DNA from: a virus | DNA: 30,027 bases | IMG/VR virus record: IMGVR_UViG_3300025137_000176 | Span: 1-30,027 of that record | Direction: 5' to 3' (one strand) | In this document: positions 199 to 30,027 of the stretch, one piece after another | Position numbering within the stretch: the first letter of the stretch is position 1 | Layout of the letters: every line of letters starts with the position of its first letter | Translations under genes and position numbers: made by a program | Notes under the pieces: model-generated | What the model was told of the DNA's origin: nothing | The model's database searches: none | Seen by the model: the letters and a program-made list of their open reading frames with translations, nothing else

Positions 199-473
199 GC
201 TATTTTTCTTATTTTTGTAAATTGGCTTTCGATACCATTCAACAAACATTCTAATGCAAATGTATCTCCGTCTTTGCTAATCATAGATTTAAACATATCT
301 TCCATTGGTGTCTGTAAAACAATTTTAGCTTTAGTGTGATACCAATAATGATTGCATAACATTATACCATAGTTAATTTTTTTAGAACGAGGTGTTACCA
401 TAACCCAATTACTTTTAGGATAATGTTTATATTTTCTATCTTGTTTTATTGGTTGCAGAAAACTTAATTGCAT
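192..473 (-). CDS. Hypothetical protein (93 aa)
   Basis: I do not recognise this protein. It is basic, with aromatic residues in the middle (YGIMLCNHYWYHTKAK) and a helical-looking C-terminus, and no signal peptide or membrane segment. Its ATG (473-471) shares one base with the TAA of the upstream gene (a TAATG junction), so the two are almost certainly translated as a coupled pair. It lies between the lysis end of the map and attP, a usual place for lysogenic accessory genes. Function unknown. Confidence 0.55.
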   Translation of the reverse strand: MQLSFLQPIKQDRKYKHYPKSNWVMVTPRSKKINYGIMLCNHYWYHTKAKIVLQTPMEDMFKSMISKDGDTFALECLLNGIESQFTKIRKIAK

Positions 474-679
474 TAGTGATTATCCTTTTTTATGTACTTC
501 AACTGTCCTGATAGCATTCGTCTAGTTGACAAGTCTCTTCTTAAAGCTCCTAACTCTCTTGCGCTTTTAGCTTTAGACATTGGATGATTCTTTTTTGGAG
601 AGAAGTTAATTATGTTGTCTGTTAGGGTTGCTAATTCTTTTTTGAAATCTTCTTTTGTCATGTAACAAGCGTTATCCAT
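473..679 (-). CDS. Hypothetical small basic protein (68 aa)
   Basis: Not recognised. It is a Lys/Arg-rich, probably helical protein with the pattern KSARELGALRRDLSTRRML. The ATG at 679 has a good ribosome site, AAAGGTAGG, a few bases upstream. It is first in a two-gene leftward unit with the 192-473 gene. The unit is preceded by the operator-like site at 778-789, so it is probably under the same phage regulator as the other leftward operons. Function unknown. Confidence 0.6.
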   Translation of the reverse strand: MDNACYMTKEDFKKELATLTDNIINFSPKKNHPMSKAKSARELGALRRDLSTRRMLSGQLKYIKKDNH

Positions 680-735: not shown

Positions 736-789
736 GGTATAATGCATTACATTAGTAGATAAGATTGTATAAGTTATTGCATTTATGCA
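736..789 (-). promoter_or_regulatory. Operator/promoter cassette for the 679 gene
   Basis: TGCATTTATGCA at 778-789 (TGCATAAATGCA on the coding strand) matches the repeated operator exactly. A degraded second copy lies near 736-746, about 42 bp away. Between them are weak hexamers at 17-bp spacing (ATAACT and TAATGT). A further inverted repeat, GCATTAT-N7-ATAATGC, spans 725-745 and overlaps the degraded copy. The operator word is certain; the promoter hexamers are weak. Confidence 0.5.
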
Positions 790-842
790 TGATTTAGCAT
801 AATAAAAAATGATGTTTAATATATTGAAATCATTGAGAAAAG

Positions 843-887
843 TGGTGGAGCGTACTGGGATTGAACCAGTGACCCCCACGATGTCAA
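843..887 (-). other. attP: attP core: 3' half of a tRNA-Val(GAC) gene
   Basis: Read on the minus strand, the segment forms the 3' half of a tRNA: a 7-base anticodon loop TTGACAT (887-881; anticodon GAC), 3' anticodon strand CGTGG, variable loop GGGTC, a perfect T-arm ACTGG-TTCAATC-CCAGT, acceptor strand ACGCTCC, discriminator A and encoded CCA (845-843). The 5' half is missing: nothing upstream can pair as an acceptor stem GGAGCGT. A 3' tRNA half 46 bp beyond the integrase gene is the standard layout of a phage attachment core, which rebuilds the host tRNA on integration. The exact core edges cannot be fixed without the host attB. Confidence 0.75.
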
Positions 888-933
888 TGTCATTATATAT
901 TATTCTAACCATCTGATTCATATAACTTAAATG

Positions 934-1899
934 TTAATCAAGTAAATTGATTGTGTCAATAATGTGTTGGTCAGATACAGATGCGTATCGCAAAACCATA
1001 CGCTCATCTTCCCATCCACCAAGTTTCATTAATACAGGTATTGATGCGCCTCTCATAACCAACCTTGAAGCCCAATGATGTCTCCAATCATGCACAGTAA
1101 AGTCTACAATACCTGCTTTCTTACACGCAGTTCTATGCATCTGTCCTATATTTTTACCTTCTTTATAAAATGTACCATTTCTGGTTGGAAAAATAATATC
1201 ATTATCAAATCTGATTGTTTCTTTTACACGCTTGTGCAATGGAATAATACGTCTGCTACCGCTTTTGGTAGTTTTATTATTGTTTGAATATTCAACTAGT
1301 ATAAGATTTTTTTCTAAATCAATATGTCTTTTGGTAAGTCGTATAGCCTCCCCTACTCTCAACCCTTGATAAGCAAGAGCGATAAACAATGGACGTATAT
1401 GGTCTGAGTAACACAATAACAAATGTTCTTGCTGTTCTTTAGTTAAATATCTTATGCGGTCTGTTTTATTTTTTTCAATAGGAAGTTTTATATTTCGATT
1501 AGCATAATTTAAAATAGCATTAAGTACATCTCGTATTCTATTTTGATAGGATTTTGCGCGACCATTTAAATATTCTTTTTTATATTCAAACCAATCATCT
1601 ACTGTAATTTCATTTATAAGTTTTTGGTGAAAAGCTACACATAATCGTGGCACACACCATGTATCAAAATGATTGCGTTCTTTTAGGTTTAGCCATTTGT
1701 TTGCTACTAAACTAAAAGGGGTGGTTTTATTCACCCCTTCTAGTTTGTATAATGCTTGCGCTTCTAACGATTGAAGGATTTGGACAGCTTCTTTTTTTGT
1801 TCTCGCCCCTGTAGATTGACGAACTGTGATGGATTTTTCATAGTTTGAAACTGTACCTCTGATGTGCCAGTAGTCTCCTCGTCTGTATAGTTTGAGCAT
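934..1899 (-). CDS. int: Tyrosine recombinase (phage integrase)
   Basis: This 321-aa site-specific recombinase should insert the phage genome into the host tRNA-Val gene and, with an excisionase, remove it. The catalytic set is complete: R181 (GLRVGEA), a likely beta-hairpin Lys near 212, H270 and R273 (HDWRH), W296 (GGW) and the nucleophile Y305 (RYASVS). Residues 1-50 look like an arm-type DNA-binding region (YWHIRGTV...STGARTKKEA), and about 60-145 form the SAM-like core-binding domain. The ATG at 1899 has only a weak upstream ribosome site. The excisionase-like gene overlaps its first 136 bp in another frame, and attP lies just past its stop. Length and motifs are normal for a phage integrase. 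Confidence 0.95.
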   Translation of the reverse strand: MLKLYRRGDYWHIRGTVSNYEKSITVRQSTGARTKKEAVQILQSLEAQALYKLEGVNKTTPFSLVANKWLNLKERNHFDTWCVPRLCVAFHQKLINEITVDDWFEYKKEYLNGRAKSYQNRIRDVLNAILNYANRNIKLPIEKNKTDRIRYLTKEQQEHLLLCYSDHIRPLFIALAYQGLRVGEAIRLTKRHIDLEKNLILVEYSNNNKTTKSGSRRIIPLHKRVKETIRFDNDIIFPTRNGTFYKEGKNIGQMHRTACKKAGIVDFTVHDWRHHWASRLVMRGASIPVLMKLGGWEDERMVLRYASVSDQHIIDTINLLD

Positions 1900-2057
1900 T
1901 TTGTTGTATCCAAAAATTTATTATATTGTTCTTCTGTAAAGAAGCGATTGTTACCTATCTTAGAATACTCAAGATTATTTTTTTTTATATATTTCATGAA
2001 TGCTTGAGTCTTCATCTGATACGTTTCTAATACTTGATTAAAATGGTATATCTCCAA
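1764..2057 (-). CDS. Excisionase-like small HTH protein
   Basis: This is a 97-aa protein if started at TTG 2057, which follows AGGAGG with a 6-base spacer; that ribosome site is inside the last codons of the upstream gene. The first half (MKTQAFMKYIKKNN...SKIGNNRFFTEEQ) has the shape of a MerR/excisionase winged helix, where a short helix-turn-helix is followed by a residue recognising a fixed position. The second half is polar and overlaps the integrase start by 136 bp. Position directly before int, overlapping it, is typical for xis genes. A later ATG at 2015 is possible. Xis as the role is inferred from context and fold pattern. Confidence 0.55.
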   Translation of the reverse strand: MEIYHFNQVLETYQMKTQAFMKYIKKNNLEYSKIGNNRFFTEEQYNKFLDTTKCSNYTDEETTGTSEVQFQTMKNPSQFVNLQGREQKKKLSKSFNR

Positions 2058-2454
2058 CTGATACCTCCTCTTCAACTTTCAGATTAGAAAATTTGTTTTC
2101 TGGTTCATCATCATTAACAGCTTCCTTTTTATATGGCTCTTTTGCTTTGAGGCTGAGATACTTGTTACCTTTCTGTGAGGTTTCATACCAAGCCGCCAAT
2201 TCTTTTGTCTCGTCTGAAAAACTACCTCTGTATGCTGGCTGTTTATTTTCTTCAGTCGCATTTTCATTCTTCATCATAAAGCCAATACGTTCTAAAATAA
2301 ATATAACTGGCTTGCCTTGTGCTGTTGTATCTTTCATCAATGCAACGTGTTTTTTCTCACCATCAATATCTAACTTACCTGTTAGAATTAGTGACTGGTC
2401 TGGGCGTGGTTGGAACACATTACCTGTGTTTGGTTTTTGTTGATATTCTGACAT
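2038..2454 (-). CDS. SSB-like DUF736-type protein with SSB-type C-terminal tip
   Basis: 138 aa from ATG 2454, preceded by AAGGA. The upstream in-frame extension is ignored because it would enter the ERF gene and lacks a ribosome site. Residues 9-105 (NTGNVFQ...GKLDIDGEKK...PAYRGSF...AAWYETSQKGNKYLSLKAKEP) resemble the small beta-barrel DUF736 family. The acidic C-terminus ends DIPF, the same last four residues as E. coli SSB, where this tip recruits replication and repair proteins. It lies 10 bp after the ERF annealing gene and two genes from the exonuclease. A single-strand DNA-binding role in phage recombination is likely but inferred. Confidence 0.7.
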   Translation of the reverse strand: MSEYQQKPNTGNVFQPRPDQSLILTGKLDIDGEKKHVALMKDTTAQGKPVIFILERIGFMMKNENATEENKQPAYRGSFSDETKELAAWYETSQKGNKYLSLKAKEPYKKEAVNDDEPENKFSNLKVEEEVSVGDIPF

Positions 2455-2464
2455 AATTTTTTCC

Positions 2465-3001
2465 TTAAAATGAGTTTGGTTCTTGTGTAATTTCGATTGG
2501 TTTGTTGGTAGATTTTGAGGCTTCGTTACCATCATCATCTTCTGATGGCAGTCCAAGCATGGACTGTAATCCATAACGCTTGGCATAGGTTATACCGCTA
2601 CCCATTTTCTGTGGGTCGGCTGGGTCTTTAGAACGTATGGGTGTGCGTGATGTTCTTGTCTCACCAGAGGGTGCGTGTATTAAAGTAGTGCGTACAAACA
2701 CCATTGAGGATTCTGCATCGAAGTCTATGTCTTGTGTAAAGCAAATACCAAATTGATTTGCTTGTGATGTAGCTTGTATTACAGCTTCAAGACTAGCGTA
2801 GTTAGATTTAAAGTGTGGGTTTTTGCTATCTTTGGTAGCTGATACATTGAGTTTTTGAAACTCAAGTAATGCAGTATTCAAGTTTTCTTTTTCCAAAATT
2901 GATTTAACTTCTTTATCTATGCGTTCGTTAATTCGTTGTTCATGTTTTTTAAATAATTCTTCGTTTGATTTTTTTGCTGCTAATGTGTTATCATTTGCCA
3001 T
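2465..3001 (-). CDS. erf: ERF-family single-strand annealing protein
   Basis: A 178-aa recombinase of the ERF family, which anneals complementary single strands during phage recombination and circularisation. The family signatures are clear: NPHFKSNYASLEAV (61-74), and GSGITYAKRYGLQSMLGL (134-151) followed by an acidic EDDDGN. The first 40 residues are a charged helical lead. ATG 3001 is preceded by AAGGAGC. It is the middle gene of a leftward exonuclease, ERF and SSB-like unit, a standard phage recombination set. At 178 aa it is a compact member of the family. Confidence 0.92.
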   Translation of the reverse strand: MANDNTLAAKKSNEELFKKHEQRINERIDKEVKSILEKENLNTALLEFQKLNVSATKDSKNPHFKSNYASLEAVIQATSQANQFGICFTQDIDFDAESSMVFVRTTLIHAPSGETRTSRTPIRSKDPADPQKMGSGITYAKRYGLQSMLGLPSEDDDGNEASKSTNKPIEITQEPNSF

Positions 3002-3037
3002 GATTAGCTCCTTGTGGGTTGATTGTTGTGTTAACTT

Positions 3038-3065
3038 AGGGGTGGCTTATGCTACCCCTTTTTTT
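3038..3065 (+). terminator. Hairpin with T7 tract at the exonuclease stop
   Basis: AGGGGTGGC (3038-3046) pairs with GCTACCCCT (3051-3059), 9 bp with one G-T pair and a TTAT loop, followed by seven Ts on the + strand. It overlaps the exonuclease stop codon (3047-3049). It is a good intrinsic terminator for rightward (antisense) transcripts. Leftward it is only a hairpin without a T tract, so the exonuclease and ERF genes may still be cotranscribed. Confidence 0.6.
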
Positions 3066-3868
3066 ACGGATATTCTTTTTGCGCCACGCTTATCACGCTT
3101 GATGGTAAGCAGGTCACAAAAGACTTCGCGTTCATTATCATTCATGGATGATGTTAATTCTTTTTTGTATTGCTCATTTTCTTTAGCAACATCTATTGTT
3201 TCAATGTATCGTTGTGCTGTTTGTACAAAGAAGTTTTCTGTGTTTGCATCACGCGCAATGAGATTATCAATCTCGACTGTCTTCCAGTCTAATGATACAG
3301 CATCCCCTGTTGGTGGTTCTGTGTCATCTTTGACGTGTTGCCAGAAGTTATACACAAGTTTGTGAACTTTTTTCCAATAGTCTTCATTGTATGTAACCTC
3401 TACATATTCATGCCTGTTGCCAAATATAACAGAAAACAAGCAGAATTTCTTACCACTAAGACGCATATACAAATGCATCTGCGGTAAGTAAGTATCGAGC
3501 ATATCATTCATATTTTTGTAGCTAGAAGTATGCTTGCACTCAACCACATGTGTTGATTGTTCTATTGATTGAATATCTTTAGATACAGCTATACCATCTA
3601 GCTGACCTTTGTACGGCACTCCTGATATCTTCATTGATACTTCAGTAACAACATGTTTATCAGTTTCTGATGGCATTACTATAAATCCGCTTTCATTGCG
3701 AAGCCATAGCATATTGAAATCTTCTGTATACTTACCCAGACTTACATTAAATAGATGAGATAAATCTTCTGGCTCTTTTCTGCCAGTTTTGATTAGCCAC
3801 AACTTATGCCAGTTTCCATTCGTAATATCATAGAGGTCTGAGCCTCCGATAAATCCTTTGCGTTCCAT
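3047..3868 (-). CDS. YqaJ-type viral exonuclease/recombinase
   Basis: A 273-aa PD-(D/E)XK nuclease of the YqaJ/lambda-exonuclease type, which resects double-stranded DNA to give single strands for the ERF partner. Visible motifs: GGSD near the start (8-11), E49 (TEDFN), D91 (GQLDGI), E110-C-K112 (VVECK) and Q130 (YLPQMHLYM), the expected catalytic order. ATG 3868 is chosen because AAGGAGGG lies just upstream; a start five codons earlier would place that ribosome site inside the gene. It is first in the recombination unit, behind an operator-flanked promoter (3879-3933). Confidence 0.88.
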   Translation of the reverse strand: MERKGFIGGSDLYDITNGNWHKLWLIKTGRKEPEDLSHLFNVSLGKYTEDFNMLWLRNESGFIVMPSETDKHVVTEVSMKISGVPYKGQLDGIAVSKDIQSIEQSTHVVECKHTSSYKNMNDMLDTYLPQMHLYMRLSGKKFCLFSVIFGNRHEYVEVTYNEDYWKKVHKLVYNFWQHVKDDTEPPTGDAVSLDWKTVEIDNLIARDANTENFFVQTAQRYIETIDVAKENEQYKKELTSSMNDNEREVFCDLLTIKRDKRGAKRISVKKGVA

Positions 3869-3878
3869 GAATCCCTCC

Positions 3879-3933
3879 TTCATTTATACACTGTTATATC
3901 ATGTTATATATTTAATTGCAATGCATTTATGCA
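3879..3933 (-). promoter_or_regulatory. Operator-flanked promoter of the recombination operon
   Basis: On the minus strand: TGCATAAATGCA (3933-3922), then directly TTGCAA, a 17-base spacer, TATAAC, two bases, and a second operator-like word TGTATAAATGAA (3890-3879; two mismatches to the first). The -10 is 5/6 of consensus and the -35 is 4/6. The downstream operator covers the likely start point and touches the ribosome site of the exonuclease gene. The upstream operator lies inside the end of the 3899-4504 gene. Confidence 0.65.
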
Positions 3934-4504
3934 GTTCTTCATACAACATTTTACGACACGAATATGGATATTTGATGTGTTTATAAAACTCTGCATAAGC
4001 TGGCATAAATGTACTAGTCTCCTCAACAATCTTGATAGATTGTACTACCATGTCTGCTGGAAACTCAGATAATCTTTTAGCAATAGCTGATAGTTTTGCT
4101 GTAGCTACAGTCCCATCAAAGTTAGTTGGCAAAGCCACAAGCAGTAATATATTTTTTAACCGCTCTTCGATTTCAATCGTAGGAAAAGTCTGTAAAGACA
4201 TAAGCACTTTAGTCATAGCAGTTTCTAGCTTATCTATCGCAATATCTTTTGGAATAACATATCGTGTTATTTCATAATGATTATTGTACTTTGTATCCAA
4301 GCCCACTAACTGCTCTAAGTATTTCTCCAGACTGCTTGTTATTTTGTATGGGGTATTTTCTGGTTGAAGCATTCTGTCTAGTGCTTGCTTCTGCTGTCCA
4401 TTTGATAACGTTACGACACCAATTTCTGTAGGCGGCATCGATGTCTTTGTACTGCTTTCCATTCGCAAGGCAGTAGTCTTTAAATTTATTTGCTTCAATG
4501 TCAT
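3899..4504 (-). CDS. Possible replicative helicase loader (lambda P-like role)
   Basis: 201 aa from ATG 4504, which follows GTGGAGC at a 9-base spacing. The C-terminal third (LSAIAKRLSEFPADMV...FMPAYAEFYKHI...CRKMLYEELHK) resembles the helical, 'YP'-type region of phage proteins encoded beside replication initiators and called helicase loaders. I see no Walker motif, so this would be the ATPase-free type. The start lies inside the initiator gene, giving a 224-bp overlap in another frame. Either the overlap is real or translation starts later (for example ATG 4372, which has no clear ribosome site). The role is inferred mainly from position after the initiator. Confidence 0.55.
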   Translation of the reverse strand: MTLKQINLKTTALRMESSTKTSMPPTEIGVVTLSNGQQKQALDRMLQPENTPYKITSSLEKYLEQLVGLDTKYNNHYEITRYVIPKDIAIDKLETAMTKVLMSLQTFPTIEIEERLKNILLLVALPTNFDGTVATAKLSAIAKRLSEFPADMVVQSIKIVEETSTFMPAYAEFYKHIKYPYSCRKMLYEELHKCIAIKYIT

Positions 4505-4904
4505 GATTTATAGCTCCACTTATATTATCAATTTGTTGTGTTAACTTTTCTGAAGGATTCCATCCCCCTATATTATTAGTATAGTTTACTGGTAGTTTAG
4601 TGTCCCGCTCTGGGACATGGTACTCTCTCTCTGGGACAGGTATGTCCCACTCTGGGACACATAGATAATAGCGTGTACTTCTGCCTTGATGACCAGATTC
4701 GCGATTAATAAGACCTGCATCTTCAAGCATTATTAATTTACGATTGATTGTAGATGTACCCATGCCAGTTCTATTGGATAAAGTTTTCTGAGATGGAAAG
4801 CATGTGCCAGCATTGTCTGCGTGGTCTGCTAATATAACAAGCAACCATTTCGACAATGCATCTGGTGTCTGAGCTTTCATAGCCCATGCTATGTGATGAA
4901 ACAT
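4281..4904 (-). CDS. Winged-helix replication initiator (lambda O-like)
   Basis: 207 aa from ATG 4904, preceded by AGGGG; an earlier in-frame ATG has no ribosome site. Residues 1-80 are a winged-helix domain (ALSKWLLVILADHAD...FPSQKTLSNRTGMGTSTINRKLIMLEDAGLI). Residues 83-103 contain three heptads VPEWDIP, VPEREYH and VPERDTK, encoded by 21-bp DNA repeats. A C-terminal helical segment (ANKFKDYCLANGKQYKDIDAAYRNWCRNVIKW) is typical of phage initiators. By analogy with lambda O, the N-terminal domain should bind the iterons in its own gene and the C-terminal part should recruit the loader. An operator-flanked promoter lies upstream. Confidence 0.8.
   Translation of the reverse strand: MFHHIAWAMKAQTPDALSKWLLVILADHADNAGTCFPSQKTLSNRTGMGTSTINRKLIMLEDAGLINRESGHQGRSTRYYLCVPEWDIPVPEREYHVPERDTKLPVNYTNNIGGWNPSEKLTQQIDNISGAINHDIEANKFKDYCLANGKQYKDIDAAYRNWCRNVIKWTAEASTRQNASTRKYPIQNNKQSGEILRAVSGLGYKVQ
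4601..4659. repeat. ori: Iterons inside the initiator gene: candidate replication origin
   Basis: CTCTGGGACA occurs at 4608-4617, 4629-4638 and 4650-4659, exactly 21 bp (two helical turns) apart. The first and third copies are parts of perfect palindromes TGTCCC-N5-GGGACA (4601-4617 and 4643-4659). The neighbouring 4500-4600 stretch is A+T-rich. Iterons inside an initiator gene beside an A+T-rich unwinding region match the lambda O arrangement. The repeats are certain; origin function is inferred. Confidence 0.65.
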
Positions 4905-4915
4905 TTTAACCCCTG

Positions 4916-4970
4916 TGTATAAATGCAACAATATAATAAAATAGTTTGACATAAGTAATGCATTTATGCA
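4916..4970 (-). promoter_or_regulatory. Operator-flanked promoter of the replication genes
   Basis: Minus strand: TGCATAAATGCA (4970-4959), TTACTT, a 17-base spacer, TATATT, two bases, then TGCATTTATACA (4927-4916), which is one mismatch from the operator. The layout is base-for-base the same as at 3879-3933 (43-bp repeat distance). The -10 is good and the -35 is poor, so the promoter may need an activator. The initiator ATG is 12 bases past the second operator. Confidence 0.6.
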
Positions 4971-5013
4971 AGGTAATGTTACGCGCAACAATCCCTGTTC
5001 ATGCGTTTATTGA

Positions 5014-5046
5014 GACTGGCTAGGAATCCCTCCCTCCTAGCCAGTC
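5014..5046 (-). terminator. Strong hairpin over the resolvase stop codon
   Basis: GACTGGCTAGGA (5014-5025) and its perfect complement (5035-5046) make a 12-bp stem with a 9-base loop. It covers the last codons and TAG stop of the resolvase gene. Leftward the next bases are TCAATAAA, not a T run, so it may work as an mRNA 3'-end protector or factor-dependent stop rather than a classic terminator. It separates the switch operon from the replication operon. Confidence 0.5.
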
Positions 5047-5358
5047 CATCAAAGCAATAGCAAGTTTGCTATCAGCTTCTATCACTATAAATTTTGCACC
5101 TGTTTTCTTTTTATAAAGATATAAATCTGCTGGTTGATTATGATGTGTTTTGGTTAGAAAAGAAAAGCCACGACCATCAGCCTGATATTTAGATTCAGCT
5201 ACCAGTCCTCCGATTCTTGTTTGTATTTTGATATCGCTTGCAAACTCTCCTCCCATTGCTCCACTGAGCGGTTGTCTTTTTGCAGCGCACCCTTTTTCTG
5301 TGAACCATTTACACCACCACCTTTCGTGATAGCTACCTTTGTTACGAGATAATCCCAA
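5020..5358 (-). CDS. Hjc-like Holliday junction resolvase / PD-(D/E)XK nuclease
   Basis: 112 aa. The nuclease pattern is E12 (NKGSYHERWW), D42 (EFASDIKI) and E55-x-K57 (VAESK), with the basic RQPLSGAMGG loop before D42, as in Hjc-type resolvases. These cut four-way junctions and branched concatemers, which fits a phage with its own recombination genes. The start is TTG 5358, placed 8 bases after GAGGAG; no usable ATG is near. The gene begins inside the preceding zinc-ribbon gene (160-bp overlap in another frame). Family by motif; substrate inferred. Confidence 0.75.
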   Translation of the reverse strand: MGLSRNKGSYHERWWCKWFTEKGCAAKRQPLSGAMGGEFASDIKIQTRIGGLVAESKYQADGRGFSFLTKTHHNQPADLYLYKKKTGAKFIVIEADSKLAIALMDWLGGRDS

Positions 5359-5492
5359 TCGTAATGCTCCTCACATTCAGAACAGAATGTCATGTCAGAT
5401 ACAGTAATAACAAACCATAGCTTATCTTCACCACAGTTATCACACTTAGCTGACTTACCTATTCTGTCGTATTTCAATTTGTATTTTGGCAT
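5199..5492 (-). CDS. Small zinc-ribbon protein
   Basis: 97 aa with C17-x2-C20 and C37-x2-C40 separated by 16 residues (KCDNCGEDKLW...TFCSECEEHY), a likely zinc ribbon. The second half (from about residue 50) overlaps the resolvase gene and is polar and less convincing as a fold. The start overlaps the end of the preceding HTH gene and shows no clear ribosome site, so it may be translated by coupling. Small phage zinc ribbons often bind DNA or RNA polymerase, but no specific function can be assigned. Confidence 0.5.
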   Translation of the reverse strand: MPKYKLKYDRIGKSAKCDNCGEDKLWFVITVSDMTFCSECEEHYDWDYLVTKVAITKGGGVNGSQKKGALQKDNRSVEQWEESLQAISKYKQESEDW

Positions 5493-5709
5493 CTAGTGCA
5501 TCAGCCCAACAGACAAACATAAAACCAGATGGTATTCTTTTGAACTGCTCCCACTTGTGAACAAGAGAAGCAGTACATCCTATTGTGTGCGCGAGTTTCT
5601 CTTGTGATATTTTTTTGCTGTTACGAATTGTAACCAAGTCAGCTACTACGTTTCTCCAGTCGTTTGTTATTGTCGTTGGAGTTATTAAGTGAGTAAATTC
5701 TGATGGCAT
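5455..5709 (-). CDS. XRE-family HTH regulator
   Basis: 84 aa from ATG 5709, which follows AAGGAAA. Residues 27-60 form a Cro/CI-type helix-turn-helix (VTIRNSKKISQEKLAHTIGCTASLVHKWEQ), followed by a short hydrophobic C-terminal piece (FVCWADALDAKIQIEI). It has no ligand or protease domain. It is the second leftward gene after the switch and overlaps the first by 71 bp. Possibly a Cro-type or early regulator whose targets could include the repeated TGCATAAATGCA operator. Confidence 0.7.
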   Translation of the reverse strand: MPSEFTHLITPTTITNDWRNVVADLVTIRNSKKISQEKLAHTIGCTASLVHKWEQFKRIPSGFMFVCWADALDAKIQIEIRQNR

Positions 5710-5863
5710 CTTCAACTTTCCTTGCTGTTGATAGACGCAAATCAATCCCATTATGTGCGCGATAATATGTTGATGTTGGTACATTTGCCAGCTTGAAAAA
5801 CTCAAGCAATGACCCTCCAGATTCATCGGATAAATTTTGTAGTTGATTTAAATATGTTTTCAT
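5639..5863 (-). CDS. Small HTH protein, Cro-like candidate
   Basis: 74 aa. Residues 14-55 (SGGSLLEFFKLANVPTSTYYRAHNGIDLRLSTARKVEDAI) match a phage regulator HTH with the second helix at VPTSTYYRA. The C-terminus is short and polar. ATG 5863 has no ribosome site. A candidate promoter TTGTGC-17-TATATT ends 6 bases before it, so the transcript may start at or next to the ATG and be leaderless. It is the first leftward gene of the switch, the position of cro in lambda. Cro role inferred. Confidence 0.65.
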   Translation of the reverse strand: MKTYLNQLQNLSDESGGSLLEFFKLANVPTSTYYRAHNGIDLRLSTARKVEDAIRIYSLNNSNDNNKRLEKRSS

Positions 5864-5869
5864 GATGTT

Positions 5870-5934
5870 AATATAATGCATTATTGCACCTTGCACAACA
5901 CTTGTTCATGTATTAGTGTGCATATATGCATAAA
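5870..5934. promoter_or_regulatory. Lysogeny switch: two operators and divergent promoters
   Basis: Two operators, TGCATTATTGCA (5877-5888) and the perfect palindrome TGCATATATGCA (5919-5930), lie 42 bp apart between the leftward HTH gene and the rightward repressor-like gene. The leftward promoter TTGTGC-17-TATATT (-10 at 5875-5870) has the first operator in its spacer. A rightward promoter is less clear; TTGTTC at 5902 is a possible -35 with the second operator downstream. Operators are clear, promoters tentative. Confidence 0.6.
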
Positions 5935-5950
5935 GAATTGGAGGGTTATT

Positions 5951-6310
5951 ATGTATGTAAAATTTCAAATTGAAGCTTCTCAAAGACAAAAATGGCGTAA
6001 CTTAAATAATGCACCCCCAAAAAAATCGCTGGAATATTTTTTTAGTGGACTTGAGCCTCCAATCAATATAAGCAAGATGGCGCAAGTTATCGATAATATA
6101 AGACGAATATTTTTGAGGGAAAATAATTATGTCATCCGACCCAATGAAGAGGTCAGAACAAAATTCCATAAGAGTATGGTTCAGAACTGTGATGAACGAA
6201 AAAGAATGGTCAGCAAATCAATGGGCATCATTGGCTGGAACATCCCCATCAAACATTACAAGATTTTTAAAAGATGGAAACTTCACACCCAGTTCTGCAA
6301 CGCTTGCTAA
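5951..6310 (+). CDS. Leader ORF overlapping the repressor gene
   Basis: 119 codons from ATG 5951, which follows GGAGGG. The first 59 residues (MYVKFQIEASQRQKWRNLNN...) are free of other genes and look like a small basic protein. The rest runs 182 bp into the repressor gene in a different frame. I do not recognise it. It is the first rightward start after the switch operators, so even if the product is not functional its translation would pass over the repressor start. The good ribosome site argues for translation; the overlap argues for caution. Confidence 0.4.
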   Translation: MYVKFQIEASQRQKWRNLNNAPPKKSLEYFFSGLEPPINISKMAQVIDNIRRIFLRENNYVIRPNEEVRTKFHKSMVQNCDERKRMVSKSMGIIGWNIPIKHYKIFKRWKLHTQFCNAC

Positions 6311-6713
6311 GTTAGCATATGTTGCAGGTTCACAACCTGCGTTCCATACTAGTTCTGACCTTACTTTAACCAAAACTCAACAGGTTATTCTATTTGATGA
6401 ATTAGACAATGAGATTAATCGTATAGGAGTATTTGGCGTGAGTGGAGAGTTGAAAGCATATCTTTCAAACTTTGTTTACACCCCACTAGGAATAAAACCA
6501 TCTGATACAATAGTTGTAAAAACAAAATGTAAAATACCAGATGGAAAGTTTTTATGCAGAACCGACGGAGTGATAAACTTAGTATTAGAATCAACCAATG
6601 ATGATAAGTTGCTGATTGATAAATCTACTGGTGATATTATTAAAAGAAAAGATTGTAATATAGTAGGAAGGATAGTCCAGATTGTTAAGAACCTAGACTA
6701 TCCAGAGGATTAA
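6129..6713 (+). CDS. CI-type repressor, HTH plus S24-like domain without visible protease residues
   Basis: 194 aa from ATG 6129, preceded by GAGGGA. N-terminal HTH at about 24-50 (EKEWSANQWASLAGTSPSNITRF). Residues 118-186 follow the LexA/CI C-terminal pattern (PLGIKPSDTIVVKT...DGKFLCRTDGVINLVLES...IVGRIVQI). The usual G-D-S-M serine motif is absent and no Lys sits at the expected VKRL position. It is the only clear repressor-like gene, facing right from the switch. It probably holds the lysogenic state through the TGCATAAATGCA operators (inference), but self-cleavage looks unlikely. Confidence 0.75.
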   Translation: MSSDPMKRSEQNSIRVWFRTVMNEKEWSANQWASLAGTSPSNITRFLKDGNFTPSSATLAKLAYVAGSQPAFHTSSDLTLTKTQQVILFDELDNEINRIGVFGVSGELKAYLSNFVYTPLGIKPSDTIVVKTKCKIPDGKFLCRTDGVINLVLESTNDDKLLIDKSTGDIIKRKDCNIVGRIVQIVKNLDYPED

Positions 6714-6721
6714 TATCCTCT
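6704..6721. terminator. Perfect inverted repeat at convergent stop codons
   Basis: AGAGGAT-TAAT-ATCCTCT, 7-bp stem, lies exactly where the repressor stop (6711-6713) and the stop of the opposite gene (6710-6712) overlap. There is no long T run on either side, so it would be a weak bidirectional terminator. Confidence 0.4.
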
Positions 6722-6919
6722 CTTAACAATAGAAATGGCAGAGCGAATATTCTCTGCCATAATCTTGTCAGCTTCATCATGTCTGTTGAGTGAACCCCTG
6801 ATATATAATTCAAGAGTACACTCAACAGTTTTGATAGCTGTTACAAAATCCATGCTATCATTATCATTTGATTCTTTTTGAATAGATGGAGTTGTTGGAA
6901 CATTAGTATACATCATCAT
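6710..6919 (-). CDS. Hypothetical protein (69 aa)
   Basis: Not recognised. A small acidic, mostly helical protein with a disordered start and a helical core (DFVTAIKTVECTLELYIRGSLNRHDEADKIMAENIRSAISIV). It starts at one of three consecutive ATGs (6919-6911) shortly after AGGAG. It overlaps the end of the upstream gene by 17 bp and so belongs to the 7268-to-6710 leftward pair. Its stop overlaps that of the repressor gene. Confidence 0.55.
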   Translation of the reverse strand: MMMYTNVPTTPSIQKESNDNDSMDFVTAIKTVECTLELYIRGSLNRHDEADKIMAENIRSAISIVKRGY

Positions 6920-7268
6920 TCATTCTCCTATCATCAATGTCTGATTGTGATATGTCAGGCGTATGGTTCATGCGTCTTTTGTCCATGATATCTTCAGACA
7001 TAGAAGTCATGTCACCATTGCTGGTATTCAAATAATCAGATTCCCAATCTTTTAATCCATCCTCAAAATTAATTTTAACTGCTGCATTTTCTAAAATTCT
7101 TAGGTCTTTGAATGCAGTTAATTTGTCCAGTTCAAATTGATAAGGTCCAAATGTTCCAAGTTCATATGCAAGTGTGCGAAGGTCAACTTCTTTTCTAACT
7201 TGCATAGGCTTGCCAAATGCTTCTCTGATTTTGTCATGCATTTCTTTTTCGTAATATAATCTATTCAT
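6903..7268 (-). CDS. Hypothetical acidic protein (121 aa)
   Basis: Not recognised. Residues 1-80 look folded and helical (YYEKEMHDKIREAFGK...LRTLAYELGTFGPYQFELDKLTAFKDL). The last 40 are acidic, Met/Asp/Arg-rich and probably disordered. No membrane segment or cysteine cluster. The ATG at 7268 lacks a clear ribosome site. It follows the DUF932 gene by 38 bp and is likely in the same leftward transcript. Confidence 0.6.
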   Translation of the reverse strand: MNRLYYEKEMHDKIREAFGKPMQVRKEVDLRTLAYELGTFGPYQFELDKLTAFKDLRILENAAVKINFEDGLKDWESDYLNTSNGDMTSMSEDIMDKRRMNHTPDISQSDIDDRRMNDDVY

Positions 7269-7306
7269 TAGACTGCTACTTTCATTTGATTGTTGTGTGT
7301 ATATTT

Positions 7307-8179
7307 TTAATTAGTCAAAGCCCATTCTGGGGACTTCAATGCTTTGGATAAAAGACCTTCACGAAGTCTGCGTGTGTTAGCTGGTGAAGATGTCTCATTG
7401 GTATGTGTAGCCCAGTAAGTACAAGCGTTGTACAAAGCCCATTTGTTTCTACCTAATGAGTGAATTTCATTACGATAGATGGACATGAGATTATCTAATT
7501 GTTTCTCATTCCATTTGAATGTTGATGTGTTGTTATTGATTTTACAAATGGCATACTTAAAGAACTTTTCAGCCCATTCATCAGTAATGGAAATATTCAT
7601 CCAATCTTGATACATTCCTTTTGTATTCATGAATGCATCAAGACCTACTTTTATCTTAGATGAAGAACCTTTTACTGATACATTGGCTGTGTGTTTAGCC
7701 CATGTTTTAGCTACAGTGTCTGCTGTTGTGCATCCATTCAAACACCATAGTCTCATGCCTTGTGCTTGTTGTTGGAATGCCCAGCTACCATCATAAGAAT
7801 TATAAAATAGAATCTGAAAGTTTATATAATCATCAACTTCAGGCTCGATAACTAAGTCAGGAAAATTGATGATGCCTCTCATCTTTGCACCATTTGCAAA
7901 CGTTTCAACATTTAGTGAATAATCTTGAGATACGTTCGCATCTGATACTGCATCCAGTATTGAGTTGACGACATCATCATGTTCAATTGGTTTGTACTTA
8001 GAACCATTGACACCAAGCACTTCATTGGTATCAGTACGCACGATAGCTTGTGACATACTTTTAGGTACAGATGCACCTTGAAATGTCTGAAGTTCATGCG
8101 TTGCAATTGGAAAGTCCCAATCAGATTTATTCATGTTCCATTCGATATCATTAACGGGTGTTTTTATTATCATATTCAT
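7307..8179 (-). CDS. DUF932 family protein
   Basis: 290 aa. DUF932 proteins are widespread in phages and plasmids and their biochemical role is not established. Family signatures: AIVRTDTNEVLGVNGSKYKPI (45-65), a central RLWCLNGC block with two Cys, and ALYNACTYWATH near the C-terminus followed by the end region. Length is normal for the phage form. ATG 8179 follows AAGGTGA. It heads a leftward unit with its own paired operators (8223-8276), so it is probably controlled with the rest of the early genes. It is often found near phage replication or recombination genes, as here. Confidence 0.85.
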   Translation of the reverse strand: MNMIIKTPVNDIEWNMNKSDWDFPIATHELQTFQGASVPKSMSQAIVRTDTNEVLGVNGSKYKPIEHDDVVNSILDAVSDANVSQDYSLNVETFANGAKMRGIINFPDLVIEPEVDDYINFQILFYNSYDGSWAFQQQAQGMRLWCLNGCTTADTVAKTWAKHTANVSVKGSSSKIKVGLDAFMNTKGMYQDWMNISITDEWAEKFFKYAICKINNNTSTFKWNEKQLDNLMSIYRNEIHSLGRNKWALYNACTYWATHTNETSSPANTRRLREGLLSKALKSPEWALTN

Positions 8180-8222
8180 TTCTTTTCACCTTTGATTGAT
8201 AGTTGTGTTAAGTTCATGGTAC

Positions 8223-8276
8223 TGCATTTATGCAGTTATTACAACAGTTATTTATTGTAATTAATGAATAAATGCA
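8223..8276 (-). promoter_or_regulatory. Paired operators ahead of the DUF932 gene
   Basis: TGCATTTATGCA (8223-8234, exact) and TGAATAAATGCA (8265-8276, one mismatch) lie 42 bp apart, the spacing seen at the switch. Between them, reading leftward, TTAATT and TAATAA are separated by 17 bases as weak promoter hexamers. Start codon 44 bases downstream. Confidence 0.55.
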
Positions 8277-9064: not shown

Positions 9065-9141
9065 GCAAAGGAGCGGAAATGTTACTAAACATACGCACTG
9101 GGAGTGTGAAAGATATCCGAATGGACACGTGCGCTCTGATT

Positions 9142-28478: not shown

Positions 28479-28479
28479 T

Positions 28480-28505
28480 TGTGCGTTGTGTTTTGCATTA
28501 ATGCA
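28480..28505 (+). promoter_or_regulatory. Late motif copy 5 plus operator palindrome before the fibre gene
   Basis: TGTGCGTTG (28480-28488) followed by the perfect palindrome TGCATTAATGCA (28494-28505). A candidate promoter is TTGTGC at 28479 with CATAAT at 28504 (19-base spacer). The fibre ATG is 12 bases after the -10-like box and lacks a ribosome site, so the transcript may be nearly leaderless. This is the only virion gene with a full operator palindrome. Confidence 0.5.
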
Positions 28506-28520
28506 TAATACCTAATCAAT

Positions 28521-30027
28521 ATGACAGTAGCATCAGGTAATAATTCAAGAAGAATAACTTATACATTAAACGCAAATTTGTCTCAGAACAACTGGACTGT
28601 GCCATTTGAGTTTAATAATTATACTGAACTCACTCTTTTTTATCAGAGCAATAGTTCTTCTTCTGGTCCTCAGTTTTTTAATTCTGCTAATGGTGGATTA
28701 GCTTCTAATGAGGTTATTGGTGGTAATGGTTCAACAGGTTCAATAACAAAAACTCTTACAGGTCATTCTGGTTCTGGCTCTACAGTAGTTATTGTAAGAG
28801 ATGTAGCTTTAGCTAGAACAACAGATTTTCCATCAACTGGTGCATTTGATATTACTAAACTAAATACAGATTTAGATACATTTCTGTATATGGTTGCAGA
28901 TAATAAAGACAGGGCTGAAAGAGCATTAAGACTTCCAGAACAGGATGGAAGTATATCAACTGAAATACCTGAGGTTTTTCTACGAAAAAATAAAGTTTTA
29001 TCTTTTGATACCAATGGTGTGCCTTCTGTAACTAATGATTTTTCTGGTGCAACATTTGCAGTAAACACATTAAACAATGGCGAATCAGCAACTGTTTCAT
29101 ACAACTCAACATCAAATCAAGTAACCTTTGGAATACCAAAAGGTTCTATCGGAGCAACAGGCGCACAGGGCGCACAAGGACCTCAAGGACAGCAAGGTGA
29201 TACAGGTGGTACTGGCAATACAGGTGCTACTGGACCTCAAGGACAACAAGGCAATACAGGTTTAACAGGTGCTGATGGGTCTACTGGACCTCAAGGGGCA
29301 ACAGGTGCTACTGGTCCACAAGGACCAGCAGGTGCGGCTGGTCCAGCAGGTGCTGATAGCACAGTAGCAGGTCCACAAGGTCCACAGGGTGCTACTGGAC
29401 CTCAAGGTTCACAAGGGGCTACTGGCGCACAAGGACCTGCTGGCAATGATGGAGCAGATGGTAATGATGGAGCAGATGGAAATAATGGTGCAACAGGATC
29501 TCAAGGAGCAACAGGACCTCAAGGAGCAACAGGACCACAGGGACCGCAAGGACCGTCAGGCAACGATGGTGCAGACGGCTCTGATGGTGCTACAGGTAAT
29601 ACTGGGGCTACTGGTGCTACTGGTCCTACTGGTCCTCAAGGACCTACAGGCAATGACGGAGCTGATGGTAGTACAACATTTTTAGCTTTAACAGACACAC
29701 CTTCTTCATTTACAGCTAGTAAATTCTTAGCAGTCAACTCAGGTGGTTCAGCGGTAGAATTAGTTGATGCACCTTTATTAAAAGACGCTAATGATGACGT
29801 AATAATTGAAGGTACTGACGGTGGTTCTGGTGCAGACCCTACACTTGTACTTTATAGAAACAGTGCTAGTCCTGCCGTTTTTGACAGTTTAGGAAAGATA
29901 GAATTTAAAGGTAAGAACTCTAGTGGCGCAGACCATACTTATTTTTATATGCAAGCACAAGCATCAGATGAAACAGCAGGAACTGAAGATGGTGTTTTAA
30001 ATTTTTATCATACTATTGGCGGTAATG
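28521..30027 (+). CDS. Tail fibre protein, T7 gp17-type N-terminus with collagen-like shaft (3' end outside window)
   Basis: 502 codons are visible and the frame is open at the right edge. Residues 1-140 ([21 protein letters not shown]...[16 protein letters not shown]...[25 protein letters not shown]) match the T7 fibre N-terminal domain, which docks on the tail. Residues about 208-383 are Gly-X-Y collagen-like repeats with one interruption ([10 protein letters not shown]). After that a beta-rich head-like region begins ([22 protein letters not shown]). It binds the host surface. No ribosome site precedes ATG 28521. Confidence 0.88.
29142..29669 (+). repeat. Collagen-like Gly-X-Y coding repeats
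   Basis: A run of about 58 triplets of the type [18 protein letters not shown] inside the fibre gene, encoded by GGTGCTACTGG- and CCTCAAGGA-like units. Such tracts expand and contract by recombination and commonly vary between related phages. It forms a trimeric rod between the tail-binding and receptor-binding parts. Confidence 0.85.

Follow-up and report, generated by a model that had tools for sequence, protein, structure and literature searches.

Gene layout and integration site

The sequence under study is an AT-rich IMG/VR virus record of 30,027 bp, and "the window" refers to this whole stretch. With the exception of the CI-like gene, genes between 8.9 and 0.2 kb run leftward; they form the early and integration block: integrase, SSB-like protein, ERF, YqaJ/RecE-like exonuclease, O-like replication protein, 2 HTH proteins, and DUF932 (Table 1). 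From 9.2 kb onward, the genes run rightward and encode terminase and structural proteins. At its left end, the window is similar to the C terminus of the endolysin-like protein of the relative L007, which suggests that the record probably covers most of a ~34-kb genome. The CI-like gene diverges from cro, with operators between the two. An additional ORF (5951-6310, plus strand) lies between these switch operators and CI and overlaps the CI start in another frame; for its first 61 residues (5951-6127) no clear homologue was found in the fetched loci of relatives.

As for site-specific integration, the window contains both an integrase and an attP equal to the 3' part of tRNA-Val. A 28-base piece of this partial tRNA matches 16 GTDB contigs, 9 of which are titled SAR116 and the rest Alphaproteobacteria. 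ARAGORN reports tRNA-Val(GAC) wherever it finds the gene, and the 45 nt are exact in 14 of the 16 contigs. Judging by attP, the hosts are probably SAR116 bacteria. CI was not confirmed in any GTDB genome, and thus there is no annotated prophage. In 2 alphaproteobacterial contigs, L108 (~1002-1029) and L115 (~84-111), other sequence stands in place of the 5' half of tRNA-Val, which is how the far end of an integrated element should look.

Table 1. Coordinates of genes, predicted promoters, operators, and other elements in the window
Feature	Position	Strand	Comment
Operator near attP	778..789	-	exact word; partner decayed
attP core	843..887	-	45 nt, equal to the 3' part of SAR116 tRNA-Val(GAC)
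Tyrosine integrase	934..1899	-	
ERF single-strand annealing protein	2465..3001	-	
YqaJ/RecE-like exonuclease	3047..3868	-	
Proximal operator, YqaJ/ERF promoter	3879..3890	-	43 bp from 3922; followed by GGAGG ribosome site
Sigma70-like promoter, recombination operon	3893..3921	-	TTGCAA-17-TATAAC
Distal operator, YqaJ/ERF promoter	3922..3933	-	TGCATAAATGCA; abuts -35 upstream; counterpart L007 5218
O-like replication initiation protein (HTH_36)	4281..4904	-	
Proximal operator, replication-protein promoter	4916..4927	-	TGTATAAATGCA; 43 bp from 4959
O-like replication gene promoter	4930..4958	-	TTACTT-17-TATATT
Distal operator, replication-protein promoter	4959..4970	-	counterpart L007 4183
Second HTH_3 protein (HTH2)	5455..5706	-	retained by relatives without operators
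Cro-like HTH protein	5639..5863	-	gene most tightly linked to the operator across relatives
cro promoter	5870..5898	-	TTGTGC-17-TATATT; operator 5877-5888 within spacer
Proximal cro operator	5877..5888	-	TGCATTATTGCA; 25 bp before cro ATG; 42 bp from 5919
Upstream operator, cro promoter, CI-cro intergenic region	5919..5930	-	TGCATATATGCA
CI-like repressor	6129..6713	+	HTH and S24/LexA-fold C-terminal domain; catalytic Ser/Lys not recognisable
DUF932 protein	7307..8179	-	
DUF932 promoter	8216..8244	-	TTGTAA-17-TACCAT; operator 8223-8234 within spacer
Proximal DUF932 operator	8223..8234	-	exact word; 42 bp from 8265
Upstream operator, DUF932 promoter	8265..8276	-	TGAATAAATGCA; counterparts L006 9904, L007 970
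Late element	28479..28488	+	TTGTGCGTTG
Single late-region operator	28494..28505	+	TGCATTAATGCA; just 3' of the TTGTGCGTTG element, ahead of tail-fibre-like ORF

Operator word and promoter registers

The operator is a palindrome, TGCATNNATGCA, with ~10 sites in the window. The exact copies that the initial annotation placed at 778, 3922, 4959, and 8223 were recovered at these positions, as were the variants at 5877, 5919, and 28494; site 3879 reads TGTATAAATGAA on the other strand. Compared with 200 dinucleotide shuffles, TGCATNNATGCA has 6 exact matches against a mean of 0.11 (maximum 2), and 42/43-bp pairs, allowing up to 3 mismatches over both sites, number 5 against a mean of 0.01 (maximum 1), where the fifth pair, formed by 4959 and a weak match (3 mismatches) another 43 bp upstream, is probably due to chance. 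The word is also not equally common inside genes: 5 of the 6 exact matches belong to non-coding DNA, which totals only ~2 kb of the 30 kb, and the sixth (3922) overlaps ORF 3899-4504. Although the genome is AT-rich, an origin by chance or by composition is refuted by the shuffle counts and by the pair peaks of temperate relatives given below; the site positions are, moreover, conserved in many relatives, and this explanation deserves practically no weight.

Among the proposed pairs, 3879/3922, 4916/4959, 5877/5919, and 8223/8265 hold, whereas 736/778 does not. Position 736 was rejected as an operator owing to its poor match, and a half site at 743 sits 35 bp from 778. In L007, a half site, TGCAT, follows the counterpart of 778 (site 8249) at a distance of exactly 43 bp. 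The operator at 778, which is near attP, probably serves the small gene at 473-660(-).

Promoter hexamers were read by eye and transcription starts are unmapped, so all promoters are predicted ones. The pairs occupy them in 2 registers, each used at 2 window promoters and identical to the base. In register I (YqaJ, replication) the order is operator, -35, 17 bp, -10, 2 bp, operator, with a spacing of 43 bp; in register II (cro, DUF932) it is operator, 20 bp, -35, 4 bp, operator, 1 bp, -10, with a spacing of 42 bp. Thus, the base-for-base layout reported for 3879 and 4916 is real (TTGCAA/TATAAC and TTACTT/TATATT, respectively). The claim that pairs surround each promoter, however, applies to YqaJ/ERF and replication but not to 5877/5919 and 8223/8265, where the proximal operator lies inside the 17-bp spacer between -35 and -10. 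The estimate of about 4 helical turns between sites agrees with both registers (42-43 bp).

Since the spacing stays at 4 turns while the promoter shifts between registers, it is probably set by the binding protein. A different explanation takes 41-43 bp as a by-product of 2 independent CI/Cro operators bracketing a promoter, with no contact between proteins. Its arithmetic of 12+6+17+6+0-2 bp fits the YqaJ and replication promoters exactly, register I geometry alone giving ~41-43 bp. At the cro and DUF932 promoters, and at the YqaJ promoters of several relatives, however, the operator is in the spacer and its partner is still found 41-42 bp away, which makes the by-product explanation rather unlikely.

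CI-like repressor

The initial annotation singled out the HTH products of the genes at 6129 and 5639. The former is a CI-like repressor according to its predicted model (mean pLDDT 87, pTM 0.56), in which an HTH domain is joined to a C-terminal domain with structural matches to LexA, 186 CI, and lambda CI, the first two at Z 10-11. In a weak HMM alignment to LexA, the CI family profile has non-Ser and non-Lys residues at both catalytic positions, and a Peptidase_S24 match is reported for only 2 of 23 family members, which suggests that the autocleavage residues are missing. With no catalytic Ser or Lys visible in this alignment, induction by self-cleavage appears doubtful; by analogy with phage 186, an antirepressor resembling Tum possibly acts here.

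Operators and the Cro-like gene in relatives

Named phage records yielded no match to CI and only distant relatives of other window proteins, and neither YqaJ nor CI of the window, used as single-sequence queries, gave relatives (none found and none confirmed, respectively). Scanning with DUF932 produced 55 loci. L006 and L007 have the same operators at the same genes as the window, and relatives also have the cro operator at the corresponding position upstream of cro. Other Cro-carrying relatives have a looser operator, TGCRNNNNYGCA, at YqaJ and in the cro promoter spacer, and many have it upstream of DUF932 as well. When such relatives lack CI, the cro operator sits within the spacer between -35 and -10, and the cro ATG follows 23-26 bp later. 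L030, L033, L034, and the cultured Pelagibacter phage Hodr, all without a Cro-like gene, have no non-coding operators while keeping HTH2, and in Hodr the operator word is absent from all 34 kb. Integrase together with CI was detected in L007 alone among the 36 records searched (DUF932 set and Hodr).

The second HTH product singled out above, that of 5639, is a Cro-like protein, encoded divergently from CI by a gene that tracks the operators across relatives, and this co-occurrence points to it as an operator-binding partner. HTH2 was rejected as the most likely operator-binding protein, as it persists where operators are absent. That the phage might have borrowed a host regulator's site is very improbable: the word tracks the phage Cro-like gene, occupies phage promoters, and is missing from Hodr, which has no such gene. 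By eye, an NrdR-like ORF precedes HTH2 in L033 (1350-3360) and L034 (5500-7500), relatives with neither a Cro-like gene nor non-coding operators.

Pairing in CI-carrying relatives

A separate scan with a two-row CI alignment gave 38 loci, 37 besides L007. These loci encode Cro-like and HTH2 proteins, and most also contain the genes for replication, YqaJ, and integrase, as far as the contigs reach; most loci with a CI gene have an integrase where the contig reaches it. Since all of these records come from metagenomes and many of them are incomplete, the absence of CI or integrase in any one record may be an artefact.

In these relatives the operators come in pairs. Among 145 non-redundant temperate sites, 42, 22, and 16 have partners at 41, 42, and 43 bp, respectively, with smaller peaks at 31 and 34/35 bp and a mean of 3.5 per offset, peaks included. 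In contrast, 76 sites from CI-less relatives show fewer than 3 partners at each of 41, 42, and 43 bp, with no peak. Promoter clusters are paired in 11 of 14 temperate cases versus 0 of 9 CI-less ones for YqaJ, in 6 of 13 versus 0 of 12 for cro, and in 6 of 7 temperate ones for replication (which has no counterpart in CI-less relatives), but the clusters are not independent trials and Fisher p-values overstate their independence, since the YqaJ and HTH2 trees, which carry long-branch warnings, separate temperate and CI-less relatives into essentially 2 clades and the link between CI and pairing therefore rests on 1-2 evolutionary contrasts. The spacing is conserved across temperate phages whose YqaJ is ~35-55% identical to that of the window (30% in one), and, on the sequences compared, this conservation across diverged phages is a stronger argument than the cluster counts. 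Exceptions include spacings of 34/35 or 26 bp in some switch regions and 3 YqaJ clusters with 30-32 bp only. Some cro-CI regions have 3 operators at intervals of ~42 bp, the final one immediately ahead of CI.

These data also bear on the possibility that the operators serve the Cro-like protein alone, with pairing adding avidity and CI acting elsewhere. The operators do follow the Cro-like gene even without CI. Cro-only relatives, however, lack the 41-43-bp pairs, which among relatives occur only in viruses also carrying a CI-like gene, and the operators occupy the CI-cro intergenic region and, in several relatives, also immediately precede the CI start; this possibility is accordingly improbable.

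Proposed control of the early promoters

We consider it quite probable that the sites function as operators in the immunity and early control of the phage itself, in which CI and the Cro-like protein share the palindrome and CI pairs cooperatively. The analysis shows the sites and their statistics, gene context, conservation, the restriction of pairing to CI-carrying relatives, and the predicted CI fold, whereas binding, cooperativity, and which protein uses which site and when are inferred; the conserved 41-43-bp phasing is indirect evidence for cooperative binding. Both proteins probably read TGCATNNATGCA, and TGCNNNNNNGCA is the predicted binding word of the Cro-like protein of CI-less relatives. 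In the prophage, CI dimers would sit on both members of a pair, 41-43 bp (4 turns) apart on the same DNA face, and touch each other via their S24-like C-terminal domains, so that the cro, replication, YqaJ/ERF recombination, and DUF932 promoters would be shut together. During lytic growth the Cro-like protein on the proximal operator alone would damp the same early promoters, much as CI-less relatives appear to use their single operators. The suggestion that the repressor is a master control survives in part: one operator recurs at the promoters of recombination (YqaJ/ERF), replication (O-like HTH_36), DUF932, and the switch, a placement shared with close relatives and widespread among CI-carrying ones, but CI is unlikely to be its sole user, as CI-less relatives keep single operators and the Cro-like gene.

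Comparison with known systems

Like lambda-type CI/Cro systems, the window has a divergent two-domain repressor and a small HTH protein, operators that lie between the two genes and overlap promoters, and an integrase and attP nearby; the switch regions with 3 operators in some relatives are a further similarity. Operators in lambda OR are ~23-24 bp apart centre to centre, whereas here the spacing is 4 turns, the same pairs are present at replication, recombination, and DUF932 promoters, and the autocleavage residues Ser and Lys are not recognisable. P1 C1 operators are likewise dispersed at many phage promoters under one repressor, but they are asymmetric and not known to be uniformly paired, in contrast to the palindromic and usually paired sites described here.

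The C-terminal domain of the repressor model has the fold of phage 186 CI (Z 10.4, rmsd 2.5 over 100 residues), which is also common to LexA and lambda CI. Phage 186 CI represses as a high-order multimer on 5 operators, and the phage is induced through the anti-CI factor Tum (PMC7708051); here, however, several early promoters are each paired. As for the stoperators of L5 and D29, the similarity is in one repressor with dispersed genome-wide sites and in repressor-less relatives that keep their sites, as the lytic relative D29 does after repressor loss (PMC5712189). The ~24 sites of L5 have a non-palindromic consensus, GGTGGc/aTGTCAAG, and are oriented to transcription (PMC5712189), whereas those in the window are palindromic, number ~10, and are located at promoters.

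In the papers searched, no comparable operator set was found for pelagiphages or SAR116 phages, and no repressor system was found described for phages of the SAR116 clade. The kind of system, phage repressor/Cro operators, is ordinary; its layout is unusual and well conserved, and the phage group is almost undescribed. The sites allow an immunity regulon to be predicted for temperate phages whose hosts probably belong to SAR116, a clade that is abundant but hard to culture. With paired operators in temperate relatives and single ones in CI-less relatives, the role of pairing can be tested, and the sites could serve as metagenomic markers of lysogeny potential.

Late elements

A late element, TTTGTGCGTTG, is located ahead of late genes at 9141, 9854, 13585 (as ATGTGCGTTG), 16799, and 28479 (all on the plus strand). 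All 5 copies of TGTGCGTTG are on the late strand and none is on the opposite one, with 0.08 expected per strand. No clear -10 was found for the element in the window, and it may be a late promoter that depends on a dedicated activator or sigma. Nearly all relatives, CI-less and temperate, have the element 3' of the terminase gene (terL). Temperate relatives have an operator or its remnant a few bases downstream, whereas in CI-less relatives an operator beside the element is generally absent. This difference suggests that CI may also control late genes directly, the single operators beside late elements possibly widening its reach to them.

A more tentative reading, to which we give somewhat less than even weight, is that lifestyle shows in operator architecture. 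CI-less phages would use the Cro-like protein on single spacer operators, and temperate ones would have added CI on four-turn pairs at all early promoters and on single operators at the late TTTGTGCGTTG elements, with one repressor silencing early and late genes directly. Collagen-like Gly-X-Y repeats are visible by eye at 29140-29680, in the tail-fibre-like reading frame.
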